A stretch of 64,000 bases of DNA from the NCBI RefSeq assembly GCF_947503795.1, contig NZ_CANNEZ010000001.1, forward strand, positions 859,001 through 923,000, read 5' to 3'. A program made the translations under genes and the position numbers. The notes beneath the pieces are model-generated. The model was not told where the DNA came from and made no database searches. It worked only from the letters and a program-made list of their open reading frames with translations. This DNA is from an uncultured Jannaschia sp. (GTDB lineage: Bacteria; Pseudomonadota; Alphaproteobacteria; Rhodobacterales; Rhodobacteraceae). Each line of letters opens with the position of its first letter. Positions within the stretch are counted from its first letter, which is position 1. This document shows positions 32,621-49,207 of the stretch, piece by piece.

Positions 32621-32912
32621 GCCCGGCGCCGAGCCGAGCTGGGCGTCATCACCGGTTGAGGTGCGAAGACGCCGGCGCGCGCAGTCTCGGTTCCGCCCAA
32701 TGGCACCGCCGAGGCGGCGTTCCGACCGACGCGAGGACGTCCAACCAACGCCATTCCGCATCCTTCGATCATCGTCCCGGCCCACCCGCGTCGTCCCCGA
32801 CCCGTCGCGTGGGCGCCGGACGCTCGGACAGGAGCAAAACGGCCCTTGCCACCCAAATCGCCCTGCCCTAGACGGTGCCCACCCCGCGCCGGGAAACCCG
32901 CGCGAACCCGGT

Positions 32913-32987
32913 GCCTGGGTAGCTCAGGGGTAGAGCAGTGGATTGAAAATCCTCGTGTCGGTGGTTCGATTCCGCCCCCGGGCACCA
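32913..32987 (+). tRNA. tRNA-Phe (GAA anticodon)
   Basis: 75 nt with encoded CCA. The acceptor GCCTGGG pairs with CCCGGGC, the anticodon loop TTGAAAA gives GAA, and the T-arm is GGTGGTTCGATTCCGCC. Its 3' part is the integration site of the elements to the right and remains intact. Confidence 0.96.
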
Positions 32988-32989
32988 CT
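32943..32989 (+). repeat. Attachment site attL of element 1 (47-bp direct repeat, copy 1)
   Basis: The segment from the anticodon arm to two bases past the CCA of tRNA-Phe, 47 bp, is repeated exactly at 44151-44197. The integrase gene ends 30 bp to the right. This is the standard layout of a tRNA-targeted element. Confidence 0.93.
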
Positions 32990-33018
32990 TAACAAGCTGA
33001 TATAATTGCGATTTCTGC

Positions 33019-34131
33019 TCATGTCTGATCCTCTTTTTGGTCGGGTTTGACGCTTTTATGCGAAGGTTTGACACTTTCGGCCCGCCTTCGGTTCTCTTCT
33101 TCCAATGTCGCCATGGTCTCGCGGTTCTTGTCGGCAAGGTTCGCAGACCGCGAATAGTGCCGCGCCATGGACGGTGTCTTCTGTCCCAGAAGGTCCGCGA
33201 TGCGGCGTTCATCGAGGCCTGCTTCGCGCAAAGTCGTGGCGACCGTGTGCCTCAAGCCCTTGAGGGTCAGGCCTTTTTCAATAAGGCCTTCATTCTCAAG
33301 GGCGGTTTTGAAGCGGTGCCAAACGGTCGAAAAGCCGTTATAAGTCCACGCCTCACCGCGCGAATTGGAAAGCACGGTCTCGGCGTCGTGGTTAGGCATG
33401 CGGTCAAGCGCGGCCTGAAGGGTCGGGCTGACCGGAATCGCAACCTCTTCGCCTGTCTTGCCGCGCACGCCCCAAATTGTCCCGTCATCGACCTGATCAT
33501 TCCGTAATCGCAGGGCGTCGGACGGGTCGAGGCCGGTGTTCATCATCAGGGCAAGGGCCACGCGCACATGTGGCTTCGCCTTGCCCAAGACGGTGTCTCG
33601 CTCCTCGATGGTCCAAGGACGGTTGGCATATGCACGGTCGCGCGGGCGGCGCTTGGGAATGACGTCTTTGGCGAAGTTGGCGGAGATAAGACCCTTCGGT
33701 ATATTGTAGCGAAACACCTCACTCAGAAGCGTGCGGACCATGTTCGCCCGCCGCCAGCCGATCTTCTTCGCCGCCTTGTCGTGAATACCTGCGATCAGCG
33801 GCGTGTCGATCACGTGGATCGGCGTATAGCGGATCGGTTCAAGGAAATCGGCACATTTGCGATAGTCGCGCCGGGTCGCCTCAGCCAGGTTCTGATAGTG
33901 CTCAGTCTCGAAATAGGACTGGATCAGCCCGCCAAGCGTTCCGGTCTTTGGGGCTTTCGCTCGCTGCGCCTCGGCGATGGCGCGGATCGTTTCGCACTCA
34001 GCGAAGAACTCGGCGGAACCAATAGGAGCGTTGCTCAGGTCAACCTTGTGGCCAGTCTCGCGATGATAGCATCGCTGCTTGCCGTGCCGGTCCTTGAATA
34101 TCTTGAACCCTTTGACACGCACCTGTGTCAT
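33019..34131 (-). CDS. Tyrosine recombinase (integrase of element 1)
   Basis: A 370-residue integrase from ATG 34131, which overlaps the upstream excisionase-like stop (ATGA). An N-terminal core-binding domain (TRRDYRKCADFL) is followed by the catalytic domain. Box II is LKGLRHTVATTL and the end is MARHYSRSAN with the probable Tyr nucleophile. Where most members have Arg in the first catalytic box (TGLR), this one reads NTGLDPSDALRL, with Asp at that place. The gene sits 30 bp from attL. Confidence 0.9.
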   Translation of the reverse strand: MTQVRVKGFKIFKDRHGKQRCYHRETGHKVDLSNAPIGSAEFFAECETIRAIAEAQRAKAPKTGTLGGLIQSYFETEHYQNLAEATRRDYRKCADFLEPIRYTPIHVIDTPLIAGIHDKAAKKIGWRRANMVRTLLSEVFRYNIPKGLISANFAKDVIPKRRPRDRAYANRPWTIEERDTVLGKAKPHVRVALALMMNTGLDPSDALRLRNDQVDDGTIWGVRGKTGEEVAIPVSPTLQAALDRMPNHDAETVLSNSRGEAWTYNGFSTVWHRFKTALENEGLIEKGLTLKGLRHTVATTLREAGLDERRIADLLGQKTPSMARHYSRSANLADKNRETMATLEEENRRRAESVKPSHKSVKPDQKEDQT

Positions 34132-34367
34132 CAAAGACGGTCCAGAATGGTGTCGCGGGTATCGGTCACAGCCCCAGACTTCACATCATCGATCCATAGA
34201 TCGAGGTCGCGGCGATCCCAAAGCAGCGTGCCTTGCTTCAACTCAACGGGGCGCACGGGACAAGCCGCCTTGAAGTGCTTCACCGGCAACCCGGCATAAC
34301 TCGCGGCCTCAGACTGCTTCAGCATGCGCTTGTCGATCACGCTGATATTGAGATTGGTCGTCGCCAT
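34131..34367 (-). CDS. Small HTH protein, probable excisionase
   Basis: A 78-residue AlpA/MerR-like DNA-binding protein: LKQSEAASYAGLPVKHFKAACPVRPVEL followed by WDRRDLDLWIDD, the usual winged-helix pattern of excisionases. It is immediately upstream of and overlaps the integrase gene, which fits a directionality factor. Confidence 0.78.
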   Translation of the reverse strand: MATTNLNISVIDKRMLKQSEAASYAGLPVKHFKAACPVRPVELKQGTLLWDRRDLDLWIDDVKSGAVTDTRDTILDRL

Positions 34368-34382
34368 CGCCAGACACCCCCG

Positions 34383-34604
34383 TCAATTCGCCACCGAGCC
34401 CTCGGCCCTTTTGACCTTGGTCGCGTTCTTCTGGAATCGCTCCCAACCGCTCATGGTCAGCATTTTGGTTTTCGATGAAATCTCCACGAACTCCAGTTTG
34501 CCGGTGTTCATGAGCGCGCGAATTTGCGCAGGGCTGAGCCCAACGATCTCGCTGAGCTGTTTAGGTGAAAGCAGGCGTTCTTGTTCCAAAATGACCTCCT
34601 TCAT
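34383..34604 (-). CDS. Small HTH-domain protein
   Basis: A 73-residue protein with one predicted HTH, LLSPKQLSEIVGLSPAQIRALMNTGKL, then a basic tail. It is 15 bp upstream of the excisionase-like gene on the same strand and may be a second recombination accessory or a regulator. It diverges from the XRE gene. Confidence 0.7.
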   Translation of the reverse strand: MKEVILEQERLLSPKQLSEIVGLSPAQIRALMNTGKLEFVEISSKTKMLTMSGWERFQKNATKVKRAEGSVAN

Positions 34605-34725
34605 TGGGTTTGCTCGGAATCGGTTGTTTTGGCGAGGCTGGCGTGGTCAGATAAGAAACAACCGTCACTGTGCTATTTTTTGCATATTTGTTTAAAATGG
34701 CACATCCGTCAATAGGAAGCCGCAT

Positions 34726-35148
34726 TTGAGGCAAAATCCCACCGATTTGCTTGTTGGCATAGGGGCCAGACTTGCAATCACGCGCAATGAAATCGGACTG
34801 TCCCAGTCGGACATGGCCAAGGAAATCGGCGTCTCGCTGCGAGCCTATCATAGCTATGAGAAGGGCGAGCGGGGGCTGCCGATTGAGGCCCTGGTCATGC
34901 TCGATGAGAAATTTGGGGCCGATGTGACCTGGGTTCTTCTGGGTACGAAGGCTGCGCGCGTGCAGCACGATATCGACGCGCTGGAGGAGTTTGAAACCTC
35001 GCTTGATCGCTTCCTGACTGACCAAGGCATTAGGATCAAAAGCGAGAAGCGCGGTGCTATTGTGGCGCGGTGGTATCGGTCTCTAATCGATGGGCCGGAA
35101 ATCAAGATGGAAGACGTTCACACCTGGATCGAGTTGTTGAGGGAGTAG
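34726..35148 (+). CDS. XRE-family transcriptional regulator
   Basis: A 140-residue protein with a Cro/C1-type HTH at about residues 12-70 (LSQSDMAKEIGVSLRAYHSYEKGERGLP) and a helical C-terminal part. The best start is TTG 34726 with GGAAG upstream; no ATG fits. It diverges from the integrase-side genes and precedes the cargo, so it may control either. Confidence 0.85.
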   Translation: MRQNPTDLLVGIGARLAITRNEIGLSQSDMAKEIGVSLRAYHSYEKGERGLPIEALVMLDEKFGADVTWVLLGTKAARVQHDIDALEEFETSLDRFLTDQGIRIKSEKRGAIVARWYRSLIDGPEIKMEDVHTWIELLRE

Positions 35149-35152
35149 TGCC

Positions 35153-35449
35153 TTGATTGAGCAAAATACGAGTTGGACAAGGCTCCGCTTGGCGGTGCTG
35201 GACCGCGTCTATGGGGCAGCTATTGCTCCGATAAACAGCCTTTATCATGCCCACATCGCGGTATGTCTGTTCTATCTGGCAGGGCTCTTCGTGCTCTTCA
35301 ATGGAGTGGGGCGCGGCCCTATTGGCATTCTCGAAGCTGGCTTGATCGTTTCAGTCGCTGTTGCCGCAGTCTTGGTGCCTATGCTAACCGGGGCAACGAT
35401 TACGCTACAATTTGTCGAGCGCAAACTCAGAAAGCTTTCTAGTGGTTAG
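35153..35449 (+). CDS. Small two-span membrane protein
   Basis: A 98-residue protein from TTG 35153, 4 bp after the XRE gene. Two hydrophobic segments (about residues 27-46 and 56-80) are followed by a short basic tail ERKLRKL. No family recognised. Tight spacing means it shares the XRE transcript. Confidence 0.65.
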   Translation: MIEQNTSWTRLRLAVLDRVYGAAIAPINSLYHAHIAVCLFYLAGLFVLFNGVGRGPIGILEAGLIVSVAVAAVLVPMLTGATITLQFVERKLRKLSSG

Positions 35450-35559
35450 GATCACTATCAGATTTCCATCTCGAAAAGTTCTCGTTAACTTGCGAGCCAC
35501 AACCAGAGGTGTAAATCTGCCGTAAACCGGAGAAATTTGAACAGTTGAGTAAATTTTGA

Positions 35560-36357
35560 ATGGCTATTGAGGACATCGAAACGCCCTTTCTTGACCTGAC
35601 AGTACGGCAACGGCTTGTTGACGACGACAATCTAGAAGATGCGAAAACCGAAGAAGCACTGACACACTGCCAAGTGGGCGCTGAAGATGAGGTAGAAGCG
35701 GCGTTCAATGAATTTGCTGCTGGCAATCGCCTAGTGGGTATTCAGGCTGTCGAGCTCGATGCTGGCGAGTGGGTCGGCCATATTAAGCGGATAGACGCGG
35801 TCACACGCTACTTATCAGGCGCACTAAATGATCTCCCGGGGTCGCCTAGAGACTTTTCCCCAGCTCAAGTTGAAGCCCGGATACGGGCTTTGGCGTTGCC
35901 GGGTAGCCCTCTAAGCAAGAAAGAGGCGTTGCTGTGGTTCGAGGAGGAAGTATTCGACCAGCTGCCCAACTACACCGTAGCGGGCCGCCCGACATGGTTG
36001 TTTGAAGCCGATGGTGGTGACGCTAGGTCGCTACTGGCGTCAACAGAGTGTTCAACACTTCCATGCCGCTTGGGGTTGCCTGAACCTCTTCTGTGGGGTG
36101 ACCCGCCTGTCTACCCCAGAGGGTTAGAGTTCGTGGGGTTCGCTTTCTCGGGAGATAATTTCGACGGTGGTAGACGACCGACCGCACTCGATGGAGATTA
36201 TGACTCTGTCAGGAAGATTTGGATTATTGGCGGGCGGACACAGCCACTTCCTCATGGTCCGGACGACATGAAGGCGCTTAACGGCTTGGGCGAGGTCGTT
36301 TCGGAGCCGCCTCTACTTTCCAATGCAGTCAACAACGTTTATGTGTTTTTAAACTAG
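35560..36357 (+). CDS. Orphan protein 1 of the ATPase cargo operon (265 residues)
   Basis: I do not recognise this family. The product is acidic in its N-terminal third (DIETPFLDLTVRQRLVDDDNLED), with a mixed alpha/beta C-terminal half containing GLEFVGFAFSGDNFDGG and DYDSVRKIWIIGG. There is no signal peptide, membrane segment or nuclease motif. The next gene starts 13 bp after the stop, so it is the first gene of a three-gene operon. Codon use is more AT-rich than the chromosome. Confidence 0.75.
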   Translation: MAIEDIETPFLDLTVRQRLVDDDNLEDAKTEEALTHCQVGAEDEVEAAFNEFAAGNRLVGIQAVELDAGEWVGHIKRIDAVTRYLSGALNDLPGSPRDFSPAQVEARIRALALPGSPLSKKEALLWFEEEVFDQLPNYTVAGRPTWLFEADGGDARSLLASTECSTLPCRLGLPEPLLWGDPPVYPRGLEFVGFAFSGDNFDGGRRPTALDGDYDSVRKIWIIGGRTQPLPHGPDDMKALNGLGEVVSEPPLLSNAVNNVYVFLN

Positions 36358-36370
36358 TGAGGGGACGTAA

Positions 36371-37153
36371 ATGAGCCTTCTTCAAGCCTTTCAGGAAACG
36401 ATCGCCGGTAAGGAGGATCGTTCCGGTATCACTGCAGTCGATGTGTACACGTCAGCGGCCTTGGAGAACGGCGACCACTCTCAACAGGATAAATTTGTTG
36501 AGATGCAAGAGGTTATTGACACCAATCTGGCTGACGCTGAACGCAAGTGGTTCCTGTTGACTGGCGTGATCGCCAAGTGGAGGCTAGTATCTGAAGCGCT
36601 GTCTGAACGTATCCGCGTTAAGGTGTCAGATGATGCCGCTCCTTTGCCAGCTGTCGCGCAGTACCACGCGCTGCGCGCCATGGGCGTAGCAGCCGGTGGC
36701 TTACTGCCAGCGGATGTGCTGAATGAGCATGCGTTACGACAGTCCCACCCAAAACTTTGGGCGGAGCTGTTCTTGAGTGCATACCAAAATGGAAATCCTG
36801 CTCAAATCACCAAGCAGATGGTCAAATTACTCGCAGGCGACAACCCATTGATGCCTTGGAAGAGCCTTCGTGCGTTATTCCCTGAAATGCGATTGGCTTA
36901 CGGCTCGCCAGCTGAGTTTCGTAAGCAGGTTCAAATAATAGCGTACGAACTCGCTGATCTTACTGCTAGAAAAGGAATTCTTGAGGCTGCAGACAAAAGA
37001 GTTGGTGGAGGAATTTCGGACAGAGTTGTAGAGATGCCGAGAAGAGCCGGCGGCAGAAAGAAGTTCGAGATTCCGAGCTCGCCAATTAGGACAGACAAGA
37101 ACTATAGCCAAATATATGTCGTTCCCGATGGGCAACTCGCTGTAGCGATGTGA
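36371..37153 (+). CDS. Orphan protein 2 of the ATPase cargo operon (260 residues)
   Basis: No family recognised. The product is mostly alpha-helical, with a Lys/Arg-rich C-terminal linker (MPRRAGGRKKFEIP near residue 223) and a hydrophobic short tail. A GAGGGG ribosome site precedes ATG 36371, and the ATPase gene follows 13 bp later. A helical adaptor or DNA-binding partner of the ATPase is possible, from context only. Confidence 0.75.
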   Translation: MSLLQAFQETIAGKEDRSGITAVDVYTSAALENGDHSQQDKFVEMQEVIDTNLADAERKWFLLTGVIAKWRLVSEALSERIRVKVSDDAAPLPAVAQYHALRAMGVAAGGLLPADVLNEHALRQSHPKLWAELFLSAYQNGNPAQITKQMVKLLAGDNPLMPWKSLRALFPEMRLAYGSPAEFRKQVQIIAYELADLTARKGILEAADKRVGGGISDRVVEMPRRAGGRKKFEIPSSPIRTDKNYSQIYVVPDGQLAVAM

Positions 37154-37166
37154 TGGGTAATAATTA

Positions 37167-39791
37167 ATGGAACAATACGCCGCCAAACGACCAATTTCAG
37201 ACAAAGACTTTCTGATTGAGCGGCCGTTCGGTGATATCTCGAGAAGCCTTTTTGAAGAATGGTTTGATGCCGCGACTCTTTTTGTTGATGCAAAGGAGAT
37301 GTACTCCGACGAGGAGAGTTTTGTTTCTGCAGTAAACGAGTGTTTTTCCAGCCTCGCAAAACATTCTACTCGATATGATGACCACATATCTGGTGGGCGA
37401 CCAGGAGTCTACGAAACTGCGCGTGTGGCCGGCTCTACCAAAGGAAAATCAAGAAAAACGCGGGCGTTTCTCTTGTTGGAGCAGATGTTTCAGGGATTTT
37501 CGTTCAATCAACATCCACTTTTGGAAAAAGCCGACATCACCAAAGAGCAGATGCGAATTCCGTCGCCTCTGCTCTTCATCCGCCGGTTGCTTACTTCGGA
37601 AGACTATCTGGCCAGTGAAGCATACGCGCATGCAGTTGTTAGGGCGGAAATATTTGCGGCAACTGCGCGCAGCTTTCCTCCGAACGAGAAGCAAAACCTC
37701 TACAAGTACATTGCCGACCAAATAAACTACAAGTCCGTTGGTGATACGCTCAAGACCATGACCTCTTACGCCGAAAAGAGGGAATCTACCAACATAACCA
37801 AGCCGATACAGTTCATAGTCGGGCACTATCTAGCTTCATTGGGCCTAGCTAAGTTAAGCCTGTCGAGAAATCCTCAAACAAGCGGCCCAAGTCGTAATGA
37901 ATACAGACTGTTTTCAGTCCACGAATTTCTGAACCGCAAGTCGCTGGATATACTCCCGAATAAGTCCTCTGATCGCCGTGACGACTACGGCTATGAGATC
38001 AAGCTGACTGTGTCTCCAAGTGAACTGCCGTCGATACCACAGATCTTAAATGATCTGGAGGGTATTCCTTTCCCAGTTCCTGGCGCAAAGACCGTTTTTG
38101 CTGGTGGCATTCGGATGACCGAGCATGGTGGTGCAGTGGTCAGAATAAGTGGCAAAAGCGGCAGTGGAAAGACAAGCCTCGCGCTCGCAGCCTGCGTGGG
38201 GCTGGCGCCGCTCGGCACTGAAACATTCTATTTGTCTTGCGAAGAAGAAAGGGATGATCTCCTCGACCGAATTTCCACGGTCACACCAGCTTTTGTAAGC
38301 ACCAATCGGGTTTTTTCAGCAAAATCAGTGCACGGAGCAGCAGGCAGTGCCTCGACCACTGTTGCATCAGAAGACCAGTACGAAGACGCGTGGTTTCACA
38401 CTTATCACCTGGATAGTAACGACGCCCGTAGCAATTTCGAAGATGCTTTGTCTTTTGTTGACCAGATCATGGAGAAATACGACGCAGAGCCGGGTGATCA
38501 ACCGCGCTACCGAGCACCGGGAACTGTGCCTTATGTTGTCGTTCTAGATGGGGTTCACGAACTTGTAGATCGTGATGCGTATGAGCTGATCCTGAAAGAC
38601 ACCCCTGAGGATGATGAAGCTGGTTACGGTCCTATTTCGGAGCTACATCGGTTGATTGAGAAATATCGGAAGCTCAACGTTCTGGTCATATTGGTCTCCG
38701 CTGATTTTGACACACCTGTTTTCAGTTCGCTGGATTACCTCGTTGATGTGGTTGTCGAACTCGGCAATAATCAGGATGTAGATGCTCCTCACAAACCTTT
38801 GCGTACTGCTAGCCTAACAAAGACGCGCCGCCAGTTTTCCAATACAGGCACGCACAAGTTTCATATCTCGAAAAGGGATGGCGTCCGCTTCTACCCGAAT
38901 CTTGAAGCGACGGTTGAACAGTTCAAGTCCAGAAATTGGCAACAGCCGGATGATAACTTTGTTTTCGATTTTCTGCTTGGGCAAGAGCCTTCCTTGAAGA
39001 TTTTCAATAAATCTCATACGGTTATAGCGGGAAAAGGAAGTGGCGGTAAGGCAGGCTTTGCACTCCGGCTTCTCACGTCACCGCTCACCCCGAGAAAGGA
39101 AAGAACTCCCAGTTTTTCGGAAGCAAACGGCGTGGGCCTTGTTGGCTTGGCCCGGCGTTGCCTGATCATATCCTTTCTCTATCCAGAGTCCTACTACTCC
39201 GGGTTGGTCAAGAAGATCAAACAGTCGAAGTTTTCCGATAACTCAACTGACTATCCAAACCCAGAGTTCGATTTCTCTACTCTTACTTTCTACCCTGGCT
39301 ACGTGTCCCCAGAAGTGCTCCTCACCAAGGTTGCGGATGAATTACGCTCGGCAGAATTACAAGGTTACCCGTTTGACAGCATTCTTCTCGACGGTCTGCA
39401 CAATGTGTTCCTACAGTTTCCACTACTGGAAAAAAGCACTCTGATTTGGCCGATGCTTTCTGAAATGTTTAGGCGCTTGGGGGTAAACGTAGTTACAACC
39501 CACTCACACTTTGATGTGTTAGGGATGGGAAATTCTCCCCTCTTAGCGGCGGACGTAATGTCGGTTGCGCATAGATCAACTCCTCTGCTTCAAGCGCTGA
39601 TCAACTCTGCAGACTATTATCTCGATGTCTCGTCTGCTTATAACAATGAAATAGTTAGAAGCCGGTCTGACAGGGATAATCTCTACGAAGTCAGGGTAGC
39701 AACAGCATTCGGTCAAGCAGTGCCCCGAAGTGGTGTGGCATTTTGGGATAGAGAGGCTATGCAAATCAAAGACTTAGGCAAGCTCATCTGA
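37167..39791 (+). CDS. Large tandem RecA/KaiC-like P-loop ATPase (874 residues)
   Basis: Residues 1-~280 are a helical N-terminal region of unknown type. Domain 1 has Walker A GKSGSGKTS at 329-337 and Walker B VVVLD with D461, followed by the strand NVLVILVSADFD. Domain 2 has a P-loop-like G622-KGSGG-K628-A, with Ala replacing the usual Thr/Ser, and a Walker B SILLD with D742, then NVVTTHSHFD. The order resembles KaiC/RadA tandem RecA folds, with domain 1 likely active and domain 2 likely impaired. It ends one base from the convergent methyltransferase gene. Function unknown; defence or DNA transaction is inferred. Confidence 0.82.
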   Translation: MEQYAAKRPISDKDFLIERPFGDISRSLFEEWFDAATLFVDAKEMYSDEESFVSAVNECFSSLAKHSTRYDDHISGGRPGVYETARVAGSTKGKSRKTRAFLLLEQMFQGFSFNQHPLLEKADITKEQMRIPSPLLFIRRLLTSEDYLASEAYAHAVVRAEIFAATARSFPPNEKQNLYKYIADQINYKSVGDTLKTMTSYAEKRESTNITKPIQFIVGHYLASLGLAKLSLSRNPQTSGPSRNEYRLFSVHEFLNRKSLDILPNKSSDRRDDYGYEIKLTVSPSELPSIPQILNDLEGIPFPVPGAKTVFAGGIRMTEHGGAVVRISGKSGSGKTSLALAACVGLAPLGTETFYLSCEEERDDLLDRISTVTPAFVSTNRVFSAKSVHGAAGSASTTVASEDQYEDAWFHTYHLDSNDARSNFEDALSFVDQIMEKYDAEPGDQPRYRAPGTVPYVVVLDGVHELVDRDAYELILKDTPEDDEAGYGPISELHRLIEKYRKLNVLVILVSADFDTPVFSSLDYLVDVVVELGNNQDVDAPHKPLRTASLTKTRRQFSNTGTHKFHISKRDGVRFYPNLEATVEQFKSRNWQQPDDNFVFDFLLGQEPSLKIFNKSHTVIAGKGSGGKAGFALRLLTSPLTPRKERTPSFSEANGVGLVGLARRCLIISFLYPESYYSGLVKKIKQSKFSDNSTDYPNPEFDFSTLTFYPGYVSPEVLLTKVADELRSAELQGYPFDSILLDGLHNVFLQFPLLEKSTLIWPMLSEMFRRLGVNVVTTHSHFDVLGMGNSPLLAADVMSVAHRSTPLLQALINSADYYLDVSSAYNNEIVRSRSDRDNLYEVRVATAFGQAVPRSGVAFWDREAMQIKDLGKLI

Positions 39792-39792
39792 C

Positions 39793-41058
39793 TTAGGCCA
39801 GCACTAGGACTGCTTCCCCTAGCCTGGGGGAACCGCCTTGTTGAGGTGATGTCCGTAGCTTTCTGCTTATCTCGTTCTTTACGACCGTATAACCCAGTCC
39901 TTTCGCGATTTCAGCTAAGATGCGTCCTGTTTCAATTTGCACGCCCGCATACTGACTATTCCCCACAACGACCCACACTCGTCCATTCCGCTTCTTGGAT
40001 TTCGCAAGTTTTTCCAGAAGGTTAGACATCTCGAAGAAGTATGTTTCGATCATTCGAGGTATTCGTTTGTCCCACAGTAGATCTTCTTGAAGTCGCAACT
40101 GCGCTACTGTTTCGGTGAGAAGCCGAGGTTGATCCACCAAGCGCGAAAAGGTTTTCGAAACTTGAACGTGTGAAGTGAGAGTCTGTTTTCTCAGATCAAC
40201 GTTTTGGTTTCGGTTGTTGAGGTAGCCGAGCATCCAAAGCTCAACATTGTAAACATCTGTATAGTCAAAGGAGTTTGGGTAAGGTGGCGAAAAAATACTG
40301 ACGTCGAATTCTGGAAAGCAAAGGCCTTCATCGCGGACATCCTGCAGTTCTATTCTGGCCGGAGTCGCTGACTTGGAGTTGAAGCTCTCAATATCGAGAA
40401 AGCAACGCTCGGCTCGCACCTGAAGAGTGTCGAGAAGATCGTATTTTGTCTTGGGTCGTTGCTGCCAATTTCTTCGGTAGCGCCTTCCCTTACCGTTGAT
40501 CACCACGTTTGAGTTTTCTATCAGTGAGCTTCCAAGAATAACCTCAAAGAGTCGCTTTACCGTAGGGTCTTTGATACGCGAAATCGCGTCTCGAAATTGA
40601 AACACTTGGTGAGCAACATCTGCGTTGAAGAGCCATTTGCCGTTCTTTCCAGGTTCGACGAACGTTTCGGGGAGCCATGCCCCGCTGTTGCGGTCGAATG
40701 AGTTCTCCTGGTCTCGGGTCGATTCAATCACAGATCGGAACGAAGACCGAAGTTCATCGATATCATAGCATTCGGTCTTCGCGCGACCGAGATCCGCCAA
40801 GAAGGGGTTCACCTCAAATGAAGTGCTTGGAACACCGAGAAACTGTGCTGTTAGCGCTGTGGTTCCAGAGCCGGAGAATGGATCAATACATGTCTCTACT
40901 TTCGCCGGATGATCGACAATCGCCTGTCTAACAATTTCCGGTGAGAATGCCTCTTTGAAGCGATACCAACTGGAAAACGGCAATTCTTGTGATAGGTGGT
41001 TTGTCCCCAGAAATACTGGAGTGCTTTCCCCTATCCATTTGTCGAAAAGTGCCGTCAT
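39793..41058 (-). CDS. Site-specific DNA methyltransferase (amino-methylating type)
   Basis: A 421-residue SAM-dependent enzyme. Motif I is D59-PFSGSGTT (residues 59-67), the N-terminal WYRFKEAFSP at 31-40 is the region that precedes it in the family, and catalytic motif IV is S257-PPY260. SPPY is most common in N4-cytosine enzymes, while DPPY marks N6-adenine, so N4-cytosine is favoured. The region 100-240 is a candidate target-recognition domain. No restriction endonuclease gene is adjacent. It is convergent with the ATPase gene. Confidence 0.86.
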   Translation of the reverse strand: MTALFDKWIGESTPVFLGTNHLSQELPFSSWYRFKEAFSPEIVRQAIVDHPAKVETCIDPFSGSGTTALTAQFLGVPSTSFEVNPFLADLGRAKTECYDIDELRSSFRSVIESTRDQENSFDRNSGAWLPETFVEPGKNGKWLFNADVAHQVFQFRDAISRIKDPTVKRLFEVILGSSLIENSNVVINGKGRRYRRNWQQRPKTKYDLLDTLQVRAERCFLDIESFNSKSATPARIELQDVRDEGLCFPEFDVSIFSPPYPNSFDYTDVYNVELWMLGYLNNRNQNVDLRKQTLTSHVQVSKTFSRLVDQPRLLTETVAQLRLQEDLLWDKRIPRMIETYFFEMSNLLEKLAKSKKRNGRVWVVVGNSQYAGVQIETGRILAEIAKGLGYTVVKNEISRKLRTSPQQGGSPRLGEAVLVLA

Positions 41059-41164
41059 TGGTTTTTGCTCGATTGATCATGTGCGACTGTCTCACTGACG
41101 TCGCAGTACCTTATGGCACGCAGTGCTTCTTTCGCCAATAACGCGCAACCATACTTCTGGGATT

Positions 41165-42718
41165 TCAATGCCTCAATCCCCGTTCCGCTTGGGCCTCCTG
41201 GCTGTCTAGCTGTCCCTCAATCTCTCGGCGGCGGCTTTCGCTAAAGTCAAGCTCTGCTGCAAGTTCTCGTCCAGCGTTTTGTAGCTCGCCTCGTCGTTCA
41301 GCAATCCGTTCAAGGCCTTCATGGACGCGGTGTGCGAACGAATGAGCAAGGCCACGCAGTCTTTCAAGCCAGCCAGTTCCCTCTCGATCTTGCCGGTCGA
41401 GCGTGTTTCCAAGGCGGTCAAACCCTTCGCGGAGGCCTCTGAGGCCTTCACCAACCGCTCGACGCAGGCGAGCAAGTCGCGTTCCAAGGCTGTCAGTTGG
41501 CTCATCTAGTCCTCCTCGATCCGAATGCAGGTGACGTGCCGCTCGTCCATCGTGCAGGTCCTGAGCCGCGTCTTCGATGGGTCGAGGATCAGCCATGTCC
41601 CCTCGGGCCGCTCGATCCGCGTCAGGCCCAGCTCGGTCAGTTCCGAGCGCGTCAGATGTACCATCCAGAAAAAGCTCCCGGCCATCATCAAGGCGATCCC
41701 TGTCAGCACCATCCCCGCGATCAGCCAGGGCGAGATCGTCAGCCAAAGTCGGATCGAGCTCAGCCGCGTCTCGAACAGGCTCGCTGTCTCGGTCTGAAAC
41801 CGGCGCGTATCGCTCGCGATGGTATGCTGCGCGGCGCCCACAATGTTCTTCAAATCGATCCTGAAGCTCTTGAGCTGGGACGGGATCGAGGCGACGTGTT
41901 CCTGCCTGATCTCGTCGAGCTCCGCGTTCAGCTTCTCGCTCAGTCGGACCCTGTTGCCAGTCTTCACGGAAAATCTCTCCTTTCAGCCGCCAGCGCTCGC
42001 CAGTGTCGGGATCGCGGGCGGTGATGTAGGCCTTGCCGGTCCGTGGCAGGTCGAAGCCTGCGTCGGTGAGGGCGTCGATCATGGATGCGCGGTCGCTGAT
42101 CAGGCCGAGGTCGATCTGGTCCTGTATCCAGGCGTGCAACTCGTCCCGGTCCTGCGCGCGGGTCGGGGCTTCGACCGCGTCACGAACCTCCTGCGCGCGC
42201 TCCACATCCATCGGATCGGCCCAGCCGTGGCGCTGGTTCATCACGTCCCGCAGGCTGTCATAGGCGTCCTGATATCCGGGCGGCGCAATGTTGAGGCTTT
42301 TGCCAGCCGTCAACTCCAGGCGCGGGGTGCAGAAGTGAAGCTCGACCCGGCCTTCGTGGCGATGGCGGACCCAGAGCACCTCATATTGCTCAGGGTCCAG
42401 CCCCGCGAAGGCCAGCCGCTCGAACTGGTCCATGACCTTGGCCTGCTGGTCCTCGGTCGGGTCGTCGCTGTCGACAAAGCTGATCACGCCCGCGCGGTAG
42501 GTCCACTGGTGGCGGCTGGCGTCGATCAGGGCCTCGGTGCGCTCCGGGTTGCCACGCAGAACCTCGGGCAGTGGATCGCGGGTGACAGTCAATGGCTGAC
42601 CGTCCGCATCGCGGATCAGGTCGCGGTTGCTGTCATAGGCCAGCACGCGCTCGGCCACGAGGTAGCCAACCGGCCCTGCGCCCGCGCCTTTGCCGTTGGG
42701 GAAGAACTTGATCAGCAC
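41165..42718 (-). CDS. MbeA-type mobilization relaxase
   Basis: A 517-residue relaxase from GTG 42718. The first ~190 residues match the ColE1 MbeA pattern: FFPNGKGAGAGPVGYL at the start, then VLWVRHRHEGRVELHF, the H-E-N-type metal site of the MOBP5/HEN group. It nicks and binds oriT during mobilization. The C-terminal ~270 residues are Arg/Asp-rich and low in complexity because two other genes are encoded in a second frame there. Confidence 0.85.
   Translation of the reverse strand: MLIKFFPNGKGAGAGPVGYLVAERVLAYDSNRDLIRDADGQPLTVTRDPLPEVLRGNPERTEALIDASRHQWTYRAGVISFVDSDDPTEDQQAKVMDQFERLAFAGLDPEQYEVLWVRHRHEGRVELHFCTPRLELTAGKSLNIAPPGYQDAYDSLRDVMNQRHGWADPMDVERAQEVRDAVEAPTRAQDRDELHAWIQDQIDLGLISDRASMIDALTDAGFDLPRTGKAYITARDPDTGERWRLKGEIFREDWQQGPTEREAERGARRDQAGTRRLDPVPAQELQDRFEEHCGRRAAYHRERYAPVSDRDSEPVRDAAELDPTLADDLALADRGDGADRDRLDDGRELFLDGTSDALGTDRAGPDADRAARGDMADPRPIEDAAQDLHDGRAARHLHSDRGGLDEPTDSLGTRLARLRRAVGEGLRGLREGFDRLGNTLDRQDREGTGWLERLRGLAHSFAHRVHEGLERIAERRGELQNAGRELAAELDFSESRRREIEGQLDSQEAQAERGLRH
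41206..41505 (-). CDS. MbeD-like mobilization protein nested in the relaxase gene
   Basis: A 99-residue coiled-coil-like protein (LTALERDLLACVERL, then ALETRSTGKIERELAGLKD) read in a different frame inside the relaxase 3' end. ATG 41505 has AGGAGG exactly 6 nt upstream, and the gene starts right after the MbeB-like stop. ColE1 mbeD has the same nested position. Confidence 0.72.
   Translation of the reverse strand: MSQLTALERDLLACVERLVKASEASAKGLTALETRSTGKIERELAGLKDCVALLIRSHTASMKALNGLLNDEASYKTLDENLQQSLTLAKAAAERLRDS
41506..41967 (-). CDS. MbeB-like membrane mobilization protein nested in the relaxase gene
   Basis: A 153-residue protein from GTG 41967 with an AAGGAGAG ribosome site, wholly inside the relaxase frame. 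An amphipathic N-terminal half (QHTIASDTRRFQTETASLF) is followed by one membrane helix at about residues 75-101 (SPWLIAGMVLTGIALMMAG) and a soluble end. MbeB/MobB of ColE1 and IncQ plasmids has this plan and stabilises the relaxosome at the membrane. Confidence 0.76.
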   Translation of the reverse strand: MKTGNRVRLSEKLNAELDEIRQEHVASIPSQLKSFRIDLKNIVGAAQHTIASDTRRFQTETASLFETRLSSIRLWLTISPWLIAGMVLTGIALMMAGSFFWMVHLTRSELTELGLTRIERPEGTWLILDPSKTRLRTCTMDERHVTCIRIEED

Positions 42719-43185
42719 CGCCGCGCCTCATTGAGAAGCGCGGCGAGCCGGCGTTCGATCACCACAAGGCGACGCGCCACGGTCAGCGTGTCGAGGTCGT
42801 TGCGCCCGACCTTCATGGCGCGGTTCAGCAAGCGGGCTATCTGGTTGAGGTTGCCGCCGATGCGCCCGACGGCCAGCACCAACGCGGGGTCGACGCGCGG
42901 CACGGGCTTGCGGCGGCGTGCTTCGGTCAGGCCAAGCGCCTCACGCAGAAGGGTCGAAGCGGGCAGTCCAGCGGCCTCGGCCTTGGCGCGCAGCTGGGCC
43001 TTCTCGGACTCGGTGCAGCGGAAGACGAAGGTCTCGGTGAGCGGCTCTTTGGCGGGGGCTTTGCCCGCGCCGGTGGGGTTCGAAGGGGAGGCGTGCCGCC
43101 CCTCGCAAGGTCCCGTGTCAGCAGCGCCAGCGTATGACATGGGTCGCCTTGCTGTTTGCTCTTCTGTGGGATCGGAAGCGGTCAT
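42712..43185 (-). CDS. MobC/MbeC-type relaxosome accessory protein
   Basis: A 157-residue protein from ATG 43185, which overlaps the preceding stop (ATGA). It has a ribbon-helix-helix start (TETFVFRCTESEKAQLRAKAE) and the MobC signature VGRIGGNLNQIARLLNRA near residue 112. Such proteins open the DNA near nic for the relaxase. The stop overlaps the relaxase start. Confidence 0.85.
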   Translation of the reverse strand: MTASDPTEEQTARRPMSYAGAADTGPCEGRHASPSNPTGAGKAPAKEPLTETFVFRCTESEKAQLRAKAEAAGLPASTLLREALGLTEARRRKPVPRVDPALVLAVGRIGGNLNQIARLLNRAMKVGRNDLDTLTVARRLVVIERRLAALLNEARRC

Positions 43186-44036
43186 GATCTGAGGCCTACC
43201 GCTTGGATTTGGGCCTGCGTTACCAGCTTCGACGCCAGCAATCCCTCGATCTGCTTGGCCGTGATGTGTTTGCACATCGGGCTGCGATCAATGATCCAGC
43301 AGACCAACCGTGCATGGTGATCGGCCTCCAACGCTGCTGACTTTTTTCGGGCTGCTGCCTGCTTCTCGACATAGGCCTGCCAGCGCCGCGACTGAAACCA
43401 GTTGTCGGAAAAGCAGACCTTGGAACGGGTGAAACCAGCGCTGTTGGTCGCGTAGGCTTGGACAGCCTGCAACAAGCGCTCCGGCTTGATCCCTTCCTTC
43501 ACGGCCTCTTCGATCTGGGCAAGGCAGGCCGCTTTGCCGCGCAATCGGTCGGATGGATACGCCGCCAAAATCTTCTCAGCTTCTGAAGCCTCCGCCGCCT
43601 CGCGCTTGCGCGTAGGTGGTTTATGGATGGTTTTAGGGTGGTTTGGGGGCCGTGGTGGCCCCGGTACCCCGGCCACAGAGGCCCCCGTACCGGGTCCAGA
43701 CTGGACGGGGTCCACTGTGGACCCCGTCTCAATCTCGGGTTCTGCGGTCGGTTCCAGCGCTTCGACCTTGGCAAGATCGATCCGGTAAACGACGGTGAAA
43801 CCGTTCTTGCAGGTCCGTGCGCCGGTCTCGACCAGGATGCCATCTTTCAAGAACTCGCGGACGGTTCGCTTGACCGTAGTCTCCCCCAGCTCGGTGTGGC
43901 GCTGGATTGTTCCTTTCGAACACCAGATGCCCGACCCGTCATCAGAGGCCTTGTCCGCCAAAAACATTATGATCTGCTTGCGCGTCGCACTCCCAAACTT
44001 CCTCTCGGCACAAGCGTTTGCCACGCGCCAGCTCAT
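43182..44036 (-). CDS. Winged-helix protein resembling plasmid replication initiators
   Basis: A 284-residue protein. The N-terminal ~90 residues form a helix-turn-helix module (KGTIQRHTELGETTVKRTVREFLKDGILVE). A Pro-rich linker at ~120-145 (GPPRPPNHPKTIHKPP) leads to a helical C-terminal domain. The layout is like helix-turn-helix initiator/primase-accessory proteins on alphaproteobacterial plasmids. It leads the mobilization operon by overlap with mobC; a role in copying the excised circle is inferred. Confidence 0.7.
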   Translation of the reverse strand: MSWRVANACAERKFGSATRKQIIMFLADKASDDGSGIWCSKGTIQRHTELGETTVKRTVREFLKDGILVETGARTCKNGFTVVYRIDLAKVEALEPTAEPEIETGSTVDPVQSGPGTGASVAGVPGPPRPPNHPKTIHKPPTRKREAAEASEAEKILAAYPSDRLRGKAACLAQIEEAVKEGIKPERLLQAVQAYATNSAGFTRSKVCFSDNWFQSRRWQAYVEKQAAARKKSAALEADHHARLVCWIIDRSPMCKHITAKQIEGLLASKLVTQAQIQAVGLRS

Positions 44037-44150
44037 TGGAAGGCCTCAGGGGCAAGGTTTGACAATTCGCCGCTAAGTGCTTGATGCGCCGTGGTCGGTT
44101 TGACAGATTTTTCGTGACTAACGTGTTGAGCCCTATCAATAAGCTTCGGT

Positions 44151-44197
44151 TTGAAAATCCTCGTGTCGGTGGTTCGATTCCGCCCCCGGGCACCACT
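44151..44197 (+). repeat. Attachment site attR of element 1 / left site of element 2 (47-bp repeat, copy 2)
   Basis: Identical to 32943-32989 over 47 bp, but the 5' half of the tRNA is missing, so it is not a tRNA gene. It is the right end of element 1 and the junction with element 2. Confidence 0.93.
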
Positions 44198-44417
44198 AAT
44201 GCAATAAAAATACATTTATTTCATATGGTTAGAAGATTTTCTGGGGTCTTTATCCCCCAGTGAATCCCCCAGCCTTTGGATCGCTTGGCACGTTTCAGTA
44301 TGTCAGCGAGGCCACTACTACTTCGGTTGGTACAACGGGTTTAGCCTACGTCTCAAAATCCGCTTTTCGCTTGCAGGGCAGTCCAATGAATCGTGGAGGG
44401 CGACAACCCTTACGATT

Positions 44418-44437
44418 TTGGTCACATATGTGACCAA
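44418..44437. promoter_or_regulatory. Perfect 20-bp palindrome in a gene-free stretch
   Basis: TTGGTCACATATGTGACCAA is a perfect dyad, and a half-site AAGGTCATTG follows 4 bp later. It lies in the 454-bp gene-free region between the element junction and the first efflux gene. It looks like a dimeric regulator site; no matching regulator is adjacent. Confidence 0.55.
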
Positions 44438-44651
44438 TCAAGGTCATTGATTTCGCTGCATAAATGGGAACGGCTCGGCTATGTTTGTGGCTTAGACGCC
44501 ACTAAAGCGGTGGTCAAAAACCTGCCAAAACTGCAAAGGTTTTGCCGGTTTTTTTTGTCTAAGTGATCGGTTTTGCGTGGGGCAGAGCGGACCAGCACAA
44601 AGGACCGTTTTCGCCCGTACAGTTCTGGCAAGGGGTTTCTGTCCGCCCGTC

Positions 44652-45500
44652 CTATGTTTCGGCCAAATCGCTCCGCGCATCGCGGATGATCATCCAAGAA
44701 GAATGCAGGAACAGCCCTGCGATGGCGAAGGCAACGATGAGGTCGGGCCAAGCGCTGCCAAGCCACGCGACCAGTCCGGCTGCGATCACCACGGCGAGGT
44801 TGCCGATGGCGTCGTTGCGCGAAAAGAGCCAGACCGCCCGCATGTTCGCGTCCCCCTTGCGGTGTTTCAGGAGCGGCAGGACCGCGAGGATGTTCACGAT
44901 CAGCGCACCTACGGCGAACGCTCCCATCAACCCGGCTTCGGGCGTCGTCTGATTGAGAACGCGCCAAAGCGTGCTGCCGACGACACCGAGGCCCAGAAGC
45001 CCCAAAAACACTCCTTGGATAATCGCTGATCGCGCCCGCCATGTCAGGCTCCAGCCGATGGCGAGCAGACCCAGAAACGTGATTGCGCCGTCGCCCAGAA
45101 AATCGAGCGCGTCCGCCTTCAAAGCCTGCGACCCTGACAGGAACCCGCCGAACATCTCGACCACGCCGTAGCCGAGATTGAGCAGGACCACGATCCAGAG
45201 GGCGCGGCGATAGCTCGGGTCCTTGTAGGCCGGATCGGAGGATGTATCACCGTCCTCGATCTTCTCGAAGCCGTAGCCGGTCGCGTCGAGGGCCGGACGC
45301 ACTTTCGGCAAGTCACCCTCAGCGATCCGCAATGTCATGACGTGGGTCGCGGCAGACACCTTCACATCGCCTACGGCCACGCCCGCAGACCGTGCCGCGC
45401 GCTCGATCTCGGCGGCGTCCTTGGCGCAGTCCATGCCCTGCACCCGCATCCGGATCGGTGAGGATGCCGTAGGCAACGTGCTGTTCTCGGCTTGGCTCAT
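44652..45500 (-). CDS. Cation transporter with N-terminal HMA-like domain
   Basis: A 282-residue protein. Residues 15-80 resemble a heavy-metal-associated domain, but the metal loop is GMDCAKD with only C25 (second Cys replaced by K27). Residues 95-282 are a six-span CDF/AitP-like transporter with GSQALKADALDFLGDG and FSRNDAIGNLAVV, two Asp/His-type metal sites. It should export Zn, Cd or a similar ion. Divergent from its ArsR-type regulator, 63 bp apart. Confidence 0.85.
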   Translation of the reverse strand: MSQAENSTLPTASSPIRMRVQGMDCAKDAAEIERAARSAGVAVGDVKVSAATHVMTLRIAEGDLPKVRPALDATGYGFEKIEDGDTSSDPAYKDPSYRRALWIVVLLNLGYGVVEMFGGFLSGSQALKADALDFLGDGAITFLGLLAIGWSLTWRARSAIIQGVFLGLLGLGVVGSTLWRVLNQTTPEAGLMGAFAVGALIVNILAVLPLLKHRKGDANMRAVWLFSRNDAIGNLAVVIAAGLVAWLGSAWPDLIVAFAIAGLFLHSSWMIIRDARSDLAET

Positions 45501-45546
45501 GTGCGATCCTCTTCAAGGTGGCGGGCGAAAGGGTTCGCCGCTAACG

Positions 45547-45564
45547 TATCAGTGGATAATGATA
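45547..45564. promoter_or_regulatory. Possible ArsR operator
   Basis: TATCA (45547-45551) and TGATA (45560-45564) form an inverted repeat with an 8-bp centre in the gap between the two divergent genes, touching the ArsR start codon. It is a fair candidate for the metal-responsive repressor site. Confidence 0.4.
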
Positions 45565-45914
45565 TGATGACGAACGACGCGCAAGGCGATCTTTTGGCAG
45601 CCGACGCTCTGGAACTGCGGGCAAAGCTCTTCCGGGGCTTCGGCGATCCCAGCCGTTTGGCAATCCTCGATGCGCTGGTGTCGGGCGAACGCAGCGTGCA
45701 GGAAATTGTCGGCGATACGGGGTTGGGTCAGCCCAATGTATCGAACCATCTGCGCTGCCTGCTCGACTGCGGATTGGTCAGCCGCCGCAGCGAGGGCCGG
45801 TTCGTCCGGTATCGTTTGGCGGGCAGGCAGGTCGCCAATCTGATCCGCGATGCGGACCGGCTCCTCGCCGCGACGGGGACCGGGATCGACGACTGCGAGA
45901 GCTACACAGAGTAG
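45564..45914 (+). CDS. ArsR/SmtB-family metal-responsive repressor
   Basis: A 116-residue winged-helix protein from ATG 45564 (the open frame extends upstream). FRGFGDPSRLAILDALVSGERSVQEIV leads to the recognition helix GLGQPNVSNHLRCLLDCGLVSRR, which has a cysteine (HLRCLLDC) as in the CmtR type of Cd/Pb sensor. A C-terminal DDCESYTE adds another. It most likely controls the divergent efflux gene. Confidence 0.87.
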   Translation: MMTNDAQGDLLAADALELRAKLFRGFGDPSRLAILDALVSGERSVQEIVGDTGLGQPNVSNHLRCLLDCGLVSRRSEGRFVRYRLAGRQVANLIRDADRLLAATGTGIDDCESYTE

Positions 45915-45918
45915 ACGG

Positions 45919-46854
45919 TCATCCGTGCCGCTCCTCGCCATGGCCGCGCCCGCCGAACTCAGCCGGGTCGTCGCAGGCGTGGCGCGCGCACTCCAGCTCA
46001 AGCGTCGTATGCTCGATGTCGAACCGGTCAGATAGTGCGGCCTTGATCCGCTCCTTCACGGCGTCTGCTTCGGACCAACGACCCTCGGTTATGACGATAT
46101 GCGCGTCCAGCGCCGCACGGTGTTCGTCCATCTGCCAGAAATGCGCGTGGTGGATGCCCGTCACGCCGTCGATTCCGCGCACGGTCTCCAGCACCGCTTC
46201 CGTCTCGATATCAGGTGGTGAGCCGAGCATCAGGATACGTATCACCGGGCCGATTTCCTGGAACGATTGCCAGAGAATGTAGCCCGCGATCATCACCGTC
46301 ACGAGCGGGTCGATCAGCCGCCAGTCGTAGAGAAGGATCAATGTGCCAGCGACAATTACTGCGACAGAGCCGAGCGCATCGGCAACGTTGTGCAGGAACG
46401 CCGCGCGAATGTTCACACTGGATTTGGACATGGCGTAGGTCAGCGCCGCCGTCACGGCGTCCACGATCAGCGCGATTCCAGCGATGATGACGATCAGCCA
46501 GCCCTCGACGGGCTGCGGATCGGCAAAGCGCATTGCGGCCTCGTAAAGCAGATAGAGGCCGATCACGATCAGCGTGGTGTAGTTGATGAGCGCGGCGACG
46601 ACCTCGACCCGGCCATAGCCGAACGTCATATCCGCGTCCCTTGGCCGTCGCGCGATCTTGCGAGCGCCGAAAGCGATGATGAGCGAGATCGCGTCGGAAA
46701 AGTTGTGCAGCGCGTCGGCGATCAGGGCGAGCGAGCCGGAAACGATGCCACCGACGATCTGCGCGACCGTCAGGCCCATATTGACCGCGATGGCGGCGAA
46801 GACGCGGCGGTCGCCTGCCTCGGGATCGACGTGATGATGATGGCCATGACCCAT
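45919..46854 (-). CDS. CzcD-type cation diffusion facilitator
   Basis: A 311-residue six-span exporter of Zn2+/Cd2+/Co2+. A His-rich start (MGHGHHHH), the metal-site HNFSDAISL and HNVADALGS pairs and a cytosolic C-terminal domain (HHAHFWQMDEHRAALDAHIVI) are typical; the C-terminal His-rich tail is GGRGHGEERHG. It is transcribed from a MerR-type promoter. An AAGGAG ribosome site precedes ATG 46854. Confidence 0.92.
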   Translation of the reverse strand: MGHGHHHHVDPEAGDRRVFAAIAVNMGLTVAQIVGGIVSGSLALIADALHNFSDAISLIIAFGARKIARRPRDADMTFGYGRVEVVAALINYTTLIVIGLYLLYEAAMRFADPQPVEGWLIVIIAGIALIVDAVTAALTYAMSKSSVNIRAAFLHNVADALGSVAVIVAGTLILLYDWRLIDPLVTVMIAGYILWQSFQEIGPVIRILMLGSPPDIETEAVLETVRGIDGVTGIHHAHFWQMDEHRAALDAHIVITEGRWSEADAVKERIKAALSDRFDIEHTTLELECARHACDDPAEFGGRGHGEERHG

Positions 46855-46886
46855 GACGGCTCCTTTCGATTCGTATCGTTTTCAGT

Positions 46887-46917
46887 TAGATACGATCTAC
46901 AGCGACTGTAGGTTCAA
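46887..46917 (-). promoter_or_regulatory. MerR-type promoter of the czcD-like gene
   Basis: On the minus strand, -35 TTGAAC (46912-46917) and -10 TATCTA (46887-46892) are separated by 19 bp, the overlong spacer used by MerR activators. The spacer contains the dyad CTACAG-CGA-CTGTAG (46897-46911). It lies between the transporter and the divergent MerR gene. Confidence 0.8.
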
Positions 46918-46923
46918 GGGGCA

Positions 46924-47352: not shown

Positions 47353-47446
47353 AGAAGAATAGCGGGTGAGGCTGGCCGTCGAAAATACGCACGCGCATTA
47401 TGCCAGCGACAGAACGTATAGCAGCTTGCAGCTTGCAAATATCCGC

Positions 47447-47463
47447 ATACCCCATGTAGGTAT
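47447..47463. promoter_or_regulatory. CsoR-type operator, site A
   Basis: ATACC-N7-GGTAT, the same 5-7-5 pattern as site B at 49209-49225, placed just before the 47469 gene. A CsoR gene lies in the same cluster. The close distance to ATG 47469 suggests that gene may start at a later codon (for example 47499). Confidence 0.55.
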
Positions 47464-47468
47464 ATAGC

Positions 47469-47783: not shown

Positions 47784-47874
47784 TGCCTGCCGCGTCCCCT
47801 GTGTCGCGGTCCTTTCGTTGTAATCACATCAGAACGGGCTCTGCCCGTGCGTATTTCTGTCGAGAGGAAAAGAC

Positions 47875-48830: not shown

Positions 48831-48889
48831 AGCGAACCCTTTGGCCGTCGCGATGATGCTCTCGACCGGGCGGACGTTCACAAACGACC

Positions 48890-49162: not shown

Positions 49163-49207
49163 CCGGTGGCACTCCTTTTCTGGAACCTTTGGTCGCCATC
49201 CTTGTTA

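Follow-up and report, generated by a model that had tools for sequence, protein, structure and literature searches.

A stretch of 64,000 nucleotides from an uncultured Jannaschia sp. (contig NZ_CANNEZ010000001.1), referred to here as the window, carries between positions 35560 and 41058 a set of four genes that is probably an undescribed defence system. Three of them, encoding the proteins P0001, P0002 and P0003, form an operon, and the fourth, which encodes the DNA methyltransferase (MTase) P0004, lies on the opposite strand and converges on it (Table 1). A preliminary description, drawn up from the letters of the sequence, had listed open reading frames (ORFs) of 265, 260, 874 and 421 amino acids as a three-gene operon with an opposite-strand neighbour one base away, and all of this is found as described: the gaps within the operon are 13 bp, and the stops of P0003 and P0004, at 39791 and 39793, are one base apart. 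The content of guanine and cytosine falls from about 0.70 upstream to 0.48–0.53 across 35–41 kb.

The four ORFs are genes and not chance frames, because they are conserved in Pelagimonas phthalicica (locus L010), where the ratio of nonsynonymous to synonymous substitution rates (dN/dS) is 0.06–0.24, and in a viral contig (locus L037), at 21–42% protein identity. Between the window and L010, dN/dS is 0.084 for P0001, 0.241 for P0002, 0.061 for P0003 and 0.128 for P0004, which places all four genes under purifying selection; P0002 evolves fastest, and one guess is that it may face phage or target variation.

In P. phthalicica the four genes stand together, in the same order and with the same convergence, at 73–92% protein identity (91% for P0001 and 85% for the MTase). 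The similarity in DNA, of 84.7%, is limited to window positions 35555–41077 and stops on both sides, beginning five bases ahead of the P0001 start and ending nineteen past the start of the MTase gene; this stretch is, as delimited by the alignment, the transferable unit. The third locus, on the 52-kb viral contig IMGVR_UViG_2517287028_000002, was found by an MTase-alignment scan of viral contigs and has the MTase at 7992–9254 on the forward strand and, on the opposite strand, the ATPase at 9246–11795, followed by proteins of 274 and 279 amino acids, that is, the same gene order and convergence as in the window. Identities are 41% for the MTase, 42% for the ATPase, 21% for P0002 and about 33–34% for P0001, and about 1.5 kb separates the set from a lysozyme-like phage ORF (recognised by eye) and about 2 kb from the contig end. 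Each of the three loci with an ATPase of the P0003 family therefore holds all four genes in the same geometry, with different flanks and a protein divergence of up to 79%.

The neighbours of the set in P. phthalicica, which the preliminary description had proposed to inspect for defence genes, are defence-like: three of the four flanking proteins tested in PADLOC match, one as OLD/Ari-type (4e-21), one as ThsB-like TIR (3e-7) and one as caspase-like (4e-12), while the fourth has no match there, and another flanking protein is ParB-like. The TIR-like and caspase-like proteins lie downstream of the set (L010:14840–21892), together with an ORF that reads by eye as tyrosinase-like.

The four-gene set looks rare. 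A single scan of the contigs of GTDB species genomes returned L010 as the sole relative of P0003; since it searched with short patterns taken from one protein, it will have missed diverged members. No P0003 homologue was found in plasmids and phages, nor in viral contigs with the single protein or a two-row alignment; with the three-row profile, and likewise with P0001, the viral contigs returned only the known L037, and P0002 had no match in them. Searches of plasmids with P0001 and P0002 gave no matches, as did a DNA search of E. coli genomes with positions 35500–41100. In a sample of the order (244 genomes, three-row profile, E 1e-8) P0003 matched its own genome only; in the class (385 genomes) and the family (295 genomes) there were, beyond its own genome, three and two matches respectively, each confined to a stretch of 53–80 residues around the first P-loop (E from 5e-5 to 8e-4), and the five were dropped as relatives, the similarity covering that P-loop only. 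Two of these five ORFs were read, and are an ABC transporter (L031; library scan and inspection by eye) and an ordinary KaiC-like protein (L033; by eye).

The protein P0003 scores 33.2 bits against the Pfam model KaiC (PF06745; cut-off 26.6), and its L037 homologue scores 48.8 bits. The single P0003 sequence finds no KaiC among PDB sequences, with ArsA as the top match at E 0.23; the three-row profile reaches KaiC at 3.2e-4 to 4.6e-4, and by these sequence matches P0003 is assigned to the KaiC/RecA class of ATPases. Two RecA-type domains had been proposed for it, and this stands insofar as there are two P-loop regions; the first alone is canonical (GKSGSGKT, from residue 329), whereas the second (GKGSGGKA, 622) is degenerate, its threonine or serine being absent in all three homologues. 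Both Walker B regions are retained (DGVHE and DGLHN), and a glutamate pair, read by eye, is present as CEE(E/D) past the strand that comes after Walker A. In a low-confidence model the N-terminal region of about 290 residues is mostly helical, and the top Foldseek matches of that model are KaiC and RadA, with TM-scores by query length of about 0.2 or less, a result taken merely as consistent with the KaiC/RecA class.

The MTase call for P0004 is borne out by Pfam N6_N4_Mtase (29.8 bits, cut-off 26.7) and by the PADLOC model MTase_II (1.3e-53), which makes it a DNA MTase, presumably site-specific, of the kind found in Type II restriction-modification (R-M) systems. Its motif I reads DPFSGSGTT and its motif IV SPPYPNSFDYTD; in an eight-row MTase alignment motif I (DPF.GSGTT) likewise lies upstream of SPPYPNSFDYTD. 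The motif SPPY is common in N4-methylcytosine (m4C) enzymes.

The other two proteins are orphans, as had been stated before, neither reaching the cut-off of any family: in PADLOC, Pfam, NCBIfam and PHROGs no match of P0001 reaches an E value of 1, and P0002 has in the same libraries a single Pfam model, far below cut-off. A conserved RPTAxDxDxD block lies close to the C-terminus of P0001, which, judging by its aligned residues, seems to be neither a PD-(D/E)XK nor an HNH or PLD nuclease.

Table 1. The four-gene set and the element that carries it (window positions, except where residues are given)
Feature	Coordinates	Strand	Basis or remark
P0001, operon gene 1	35560..36357	+	265 aa; ORF list, homologues L010/L037, dN/dS
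P0002, operon gene 2	36371..37153	+	260 aa; ORF list, homologues, dN/dS
P0003, KaiC/RecA-class ATPase, operon gene 3	37167..39791	+	874 aa; Pfam KaiC
P0003 layout	residues ~1-290; 329-336; 622-629		N-terminal region; domain 1 Walker A, with Walker B; domain 2 Walker A, degenerate
P0004, DNA methyltransferase	39793..41058	-	421 aa; Pfam, PADLOC; convergent to operon
attL, 3' end of tRNA-Phe (32913-32987)	32940..32989	+	50-bp direct repeat
Tyrosine integrase	33019..34134	-	Pfam Phage_integrase 61.4 bits; L062 protein 96% identical
Helix-turn-helix (HTH) regulator, backbone, left border of cargo slot	34726..35148	+	Pfam HTH_3 36.8 bits; L062 protein 60% identical
Small hydrophobic ORF between HTH gene and operon	35153..35449	+	98 aa; TTG start
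Relaxase (MobA/VirD2-like), backbone, right border of slot	41165..42718	-	L062 protein 90% identical
NikA/MobC-like mobilisation protein	42712..43275	-
HTH protein	43182..44036	-	HTH_36 weak; homologues in L089, L099
attR, same element	44148..44197	+	49/50 bases = attL

The carrier element and the cargo of its relatives

An integrative mobilizable element of 11.2 kb, inserted in a tRNA-Phe gene, carries the four genes as cargo. The element has an integrase, attachment (att) repeats in the tRNA gene, a MobC/NikA-like protein and a relaxase that scores 23.9 bits in Pfam, slightly below the cut-off of 24.6, and there is no conjugation machinery of its own in its ORF list. The mobile element proposed in the preliminary description is thereby given borders, in the form of 50-bp direct repeats, and its phrase "main cargo" holds, the four genes being the sole non-backbone set apart from the 98-aa ORF. 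That ORF lies outside the stretch shared with L010 and is without a relative in 17 integrase neighbourhoods of other genomes; it may be a member of the backbone, or not a gene. The last HTH protein of the element may, by its position, be replication-initiator-like.

A congener (G1183, locus L062) carries this element in the same tRNA-Phe with other cargo; its DNA matches the window at 32861–35147 (82%) and 41169–44223 (88%) and has no match between 35147 and 41169. In place of the four genes its slot holds a Type III Mod protein (2.9e-132), a protein that weakly matches Type III Res (6e-5), an Mrr-like protein (9e-28) and two smaller ORFs without any match. The integrase is present in 18 of 295 genomes of the family, including its own (E 1e-90), and the neighbourhoods of the 17 others were taken, several of which end at a contig edge. 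Integrase, HTH gene and relaxase are all present in three of these 17: in L086 the slot is filled by a Type IIG protein (4.5e-136) together with an HNH protein and a homologue of Mrr; in L089, by a NotI-like restriction endonuclease (PADLOC REase_II, 2.4e-29) that faces a C5-MTase in convergent orientation; and in L099, by a C5-MTase with a GHKL ATPase. The remaining 14, which have no relaxase or just a piece of one (L096), are cut, or belong to other elements, were not counted. MTase-based sets thus stand between the HTH gene and the relaxase in all four complete relatives (L062, L086, L089 and L099).

Some further observations concern this family of elements. The convergent layout is also seen in its ordinary R-M cargo (L089:5299–7572). 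In the uncounted L087, integrase and HTH gene are followed by apparent metabolic genes (by eye). Beside a related integrase, L091:3130–12529 encodes, as read by eye, Vsr, a C5-MTase, a GHKL ATPase and large proteins, and is a candidate for another defence cluster. A different tRNA-Phe element, in congener G1193 (L063), has a Shedu-like SduA (2e-20) and a PD-Lambda-2_B-like protein (1e-28), and a further att copy of 46–49 bp lies near tRNA-Phe in 3 of 19 other congeners (G1183, G1193 and G1186); the tRNA-Phe gene may be a defence hotspot in the genus.

What looks like a second element (window positions 44198–62571) adjoins the first, inserted at the same tRNA-Phe site, and appears to finish near a third att copy of 20 bp (19/20) at 62552–62571. 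It carries a cation-efflux gene (44652–45500), a MerR gene (46924–47352), an ArdC-like anti-restriction gene (50901–51836), a long ORF that reads by eye as a relaxase/helicase (57502–60486) and an integrase (61261–62436). Three consecutive ORFs of low GC content at 52523–55031 (287, 268 and 279 aa) have hardly any family match, DUF5677 being below cut-off, and are possibly further cargo.

Partners of related methyltransferases

The group of MTases considered here comprises P0004, its L010 counterpart (85%) and ten proteins that are 38–43% identical to P0004 (L007, L008, L022–L025 and L034–L037). Weaker matches, of about 21–29%, were not counted; they made up 31 of the 33 plasmid records, 5 of the 10 genomes and 3 of the 7 viral loci. 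L034 stays outside the neighbour count, its contig stopping after the MTase. Eleven MTases, that of the window included, have readable neighbours: three are accompanied by the KaiC-type trio and eight (L007, L008, L022–L025, L035 and L036) by a Lamassu/ABC-3C-like trio, made up of an SMC/LmuB-like ATPase, a protein of about 200–250 aa and another of about 300–450 aa. Two of the trio ATPases were scanned and both match LmuB (2e-20 and 2.2e-11). A GRxD...ELK-type (PD-(D/E)XK-like) motif, a pattern defined after viewing the alignment and with no control, is present in 8 of 9 third proteins, from 7 of 8 loci, L007 contributing two trios and L008 being without the motif. Position alone identifies the third proteins in L008 and L036, and the middle protein of L024 was assigned by eye; the ATPase of L008 is split.

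The trio is directly convergent with the MTase in four of the eight loci (L022, L023, L025 and L035), which may represent a methylation-coupled Lamassu-like system, itself undescribed; in L007, L008, L024 and L036 it is not convergent, or a gene lies between it and the MTase. In the Burkholderia stagnalis replicon of L007 (4436–14559) two different Lamassu-like trios flank one MTase, and the locus adjoins TniA/TniB/TniQ-like transposon genes (names given by eye). Further away in sequence are the MTases of L038 and L039 (25 and 28%), each of which faces a protein of about 950 aa; the one in L038 matches ResIII helicase and PADLOC REase_MTase_IIG (4.9e-96), with an AlwI endonuclease match slightly below cut-off. 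A relative from Pseudanabaena lies two genes away from an annotated HNH endonuclease. Support in the MTase tree for the three KaiC-type MTases as one group is 39/30, with L034, whose partner is unreadable, labelled SMC in this test; the tree leaves the grouping unsettled, and for this reason no claim is made on how often partners were exchanged.

Proposed function and rival explanations

Taken together, these observations are best read as those of one methylation-guarded, ATP-driven restriction-type defence module of new composition, a reading to which we give roughly two chances in three on the basis of comparative sequence analysis. That this is probably an undescribed defence system follows from the recurrence of the set as a unit at three places and from the restriction systems that hold the same slot in sibling elements. 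The preliminary description, which had proposed an undescribed system outside the named ones, was to fall if the homologues never co-occurred or all belonged to a named system; this was examined, and the four genes co-occur at all three loci, with no convincing PADLOC match to a named system apart from the generic MTase. It had also left open defence, epigenetic switching and element maintenance, and these options have narrowed towards restriction-like defence because of the exchanged cargo, the defence-like flanks in L010 and the Lamassu-paired MTases, with maintenance retained. The profile and structure searches that it suggested settled the KaiC and MTase classes; they gave no family for P0001 or P0002 and no usable folds.

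In the proposed mechanism, the MTase would mark sites in host DNA, and the operon machine, driven by P0003, would recognise DNA that lacks the mark (phage or plasmid) and stop it, P0001 and P0002 acting as sensor or adaptor and as executor. The target would then be unmodified incoming DNA, and the MTase would protect against an operon trio that is presumably harmful without it. Domain 1 of P0003 would hydrolyse ATP and domain 2 would be structural or regulatory. The outcome could be either cutting, if P0001, P0002 or the N-terminus of P0003 holds a nuclease that has escaped recognition, or mere blocking.

Several points weigh against this reading. Searches of PADLOC, Pfam, NCBIfam and PHROGs find neither a nuclease motif nor an endonuclease family in any of the four proteins, so that the absence of an endonuclease noted in the preliminary description holds to the reach of family profiles, and P0001 has no invariant histidine or lysine across the three aligned rows. 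Structure predictions, built on three-row alignments, reached a mean confidence (pLDDT) of 34 and 41 and gave no usable folds. Three members of the set were found, and two of them are 85% identical in DNA; the cargo swap rests on four elements, a small number, and among these the relaxase of L089 is split into two ORFs and the integrase of L099 is in two pieces. The third proteins of the sister trios match Pfam PDDEXK_9 in three of six tested, all below cut-off, and in PADLOC none of five tested matches. Comparison by hhalign of five pairs of profiles from the KaiC and Lamassu-like trios (P0001, P0002 and P0003 against the sister nuclease, and P0001 and P0002 against the sister middle protein) detects no similarity, with probabilities of 0.1–0.2% for P0001 and P0002, and since three-row profiles are weak a remote relation of these two to the sister proteins could be missed; as it stands, the Lamassu-like sister supports the defence reading by analogy only.

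The alternative that survives best is element maintenance, or addiction, in which loss of the element would dilute the methyl mark and the trio would then attack the host chromosome, so that the module stabilises the element. Selfish R-M systems behave in this way, defence would involve the same biochemistry, and the four genes are, the 98-aa ORF apart, all that the 11.2-kb element carries beyond its backbone. The set is also found outside the element, amid the defence-like genes of L010 and in the viral contig L037, and this makes maintenance unlikely as the main function; addiction and defence are compatible, and maintenance could be a by-product of defence.

A control of replication or expression, in which the MTase and the KaiC-class ATPase would modulate how the element replicates, transfers or is expressed and leave foreign DNA unattacked, agrees with the lack of a nuclease in the family libraries and with the fact that KaiC is itself a regulator. 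Restriction sets replace the module in sibling elements, which means that the element does not need it, and the L010 copy lies outside such an element; we consider this explanation improbable, and somewhat more so than maintenance. Even less probable is anti-defence, in which the MTase would shield the element against restriction by the host and the operon would block host systems: the ArdC-like gene of the neighbouring element shows that such genes occur nearby, but the operon is linked to a P0004-type MTase at all three loci and the slot is occupied by restriction sets in four relatives. A chance neighbourhood of unrelated genes is refuted, since the set keeps its composition and geometry at three loci whose flanks differ and whose proteins diverge by as much as 79%.

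If the defence reading is true, methylation-guarded defence would have a new type of executor with a KaiC/RecA-class motor, P0001 and P0002 may hold new folds or activities, and the sibling elements, with different restriction sets in one slot, would offer a natural experiment. The MTase may keep its role while the partner machine, Lamassu-like or KaiC-type, is swapped, which is a testable origin of defence systems. A wider proposal, which we offer tentatively and hold to be rather less probable than not, is that of a new class of immunity, in which the motor is a two-domain KaiC-class ATPase in place of a nuclease-helicase or an SMC ring, joined by two proteins of unknown fold and directed at foreign DNA that lacks methylation, and related MTases provide an interchangeable self mark on which two or more unrelated executor machines can draw; were that so, new defence systems could evolve by the swapping of executors around the MTase.

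Comparison with known systems

The Lamassu/ABC-3C-like trio resembles the window set in having a related MTase (38–43% identical to P0004) and a three-gene partner with an ATPase. It differs in that its ATPase is SMC/LmuB-like and its third protein mostly PD-(D/E)XK-like, whereas the window set has a KaiC/RecA ATPase and another gene order; P0003 has no match to LmuB in PADLOC, mad8 being its one match there, and hhalign with three-row profiles finds no Lamassu middle component or effector in P0001 and P0002. One account places ABC-3C in the Lamassu superfamily, with an effector LmuA, a small LmuC ("MC") and an SMC-like LmuB (PMC10586767).

Type II, IIG and III R-M systems fill the same slot in sibling elements and share an MTase of the MTase_II class, but the window set is without an endonuclease or a Res/Mod protein, its ATPase is of the RecA/KaiC class, and no cognate endonuclease of Type II is found for P0001–P0003 in the four family libraries. 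BREX, DISARM and Dnd/Ssp-type systems share with it the combination of modification and a multi-gene ATPase machine. DISARM is built of the helicase DrmA together with DrmB and DrmC. None of the four proteins matches PglZ, BrxC/PglY, Drm (DrmA, DrmB and DrmC included), Dnd or Ssp in PADLOC (for P0004, among the best 25 of 31 matches). BREX is said to act through inhibition of phage DNA replication (PMC13326643).

The MADS system likewise has an MTase plus ATPases, and gives weak PADLOC matches: mad8 for P0003 (E 4e-4) and its L037 homologue (1.9e-4), and mad2 for P0004 (0.0035). The system is a set of Mad proteins that includes a kinase; the mad8 match is limited to residues 408–513 of P0003, and no other Mad protein is found among the four. 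The KaiC clock ATPase has tandem RecA-type domains, as P0003 does; in the clock system both domains are active as ATPases and KaiA and KaiB are the partners. P0003 differs by its N-terminal region of about 290 residues, its second P-loop, degenerate in 3/3 homologues, and its MTase context, and P0001, P0002 and P0004 have no match to KaiA or KaiB. The earlier statement that the set belongs to no named system is thus upheld, there being no convincing match beyond the generic MTase and the weak mad8 and mad2 hits, and no description of these four genes as a set appears among the publications that the literature searches listed. The principle of methylation-guarded defence is known; the gene composition is most likely new, and there is a real chance that the four-gene set represents a new class.

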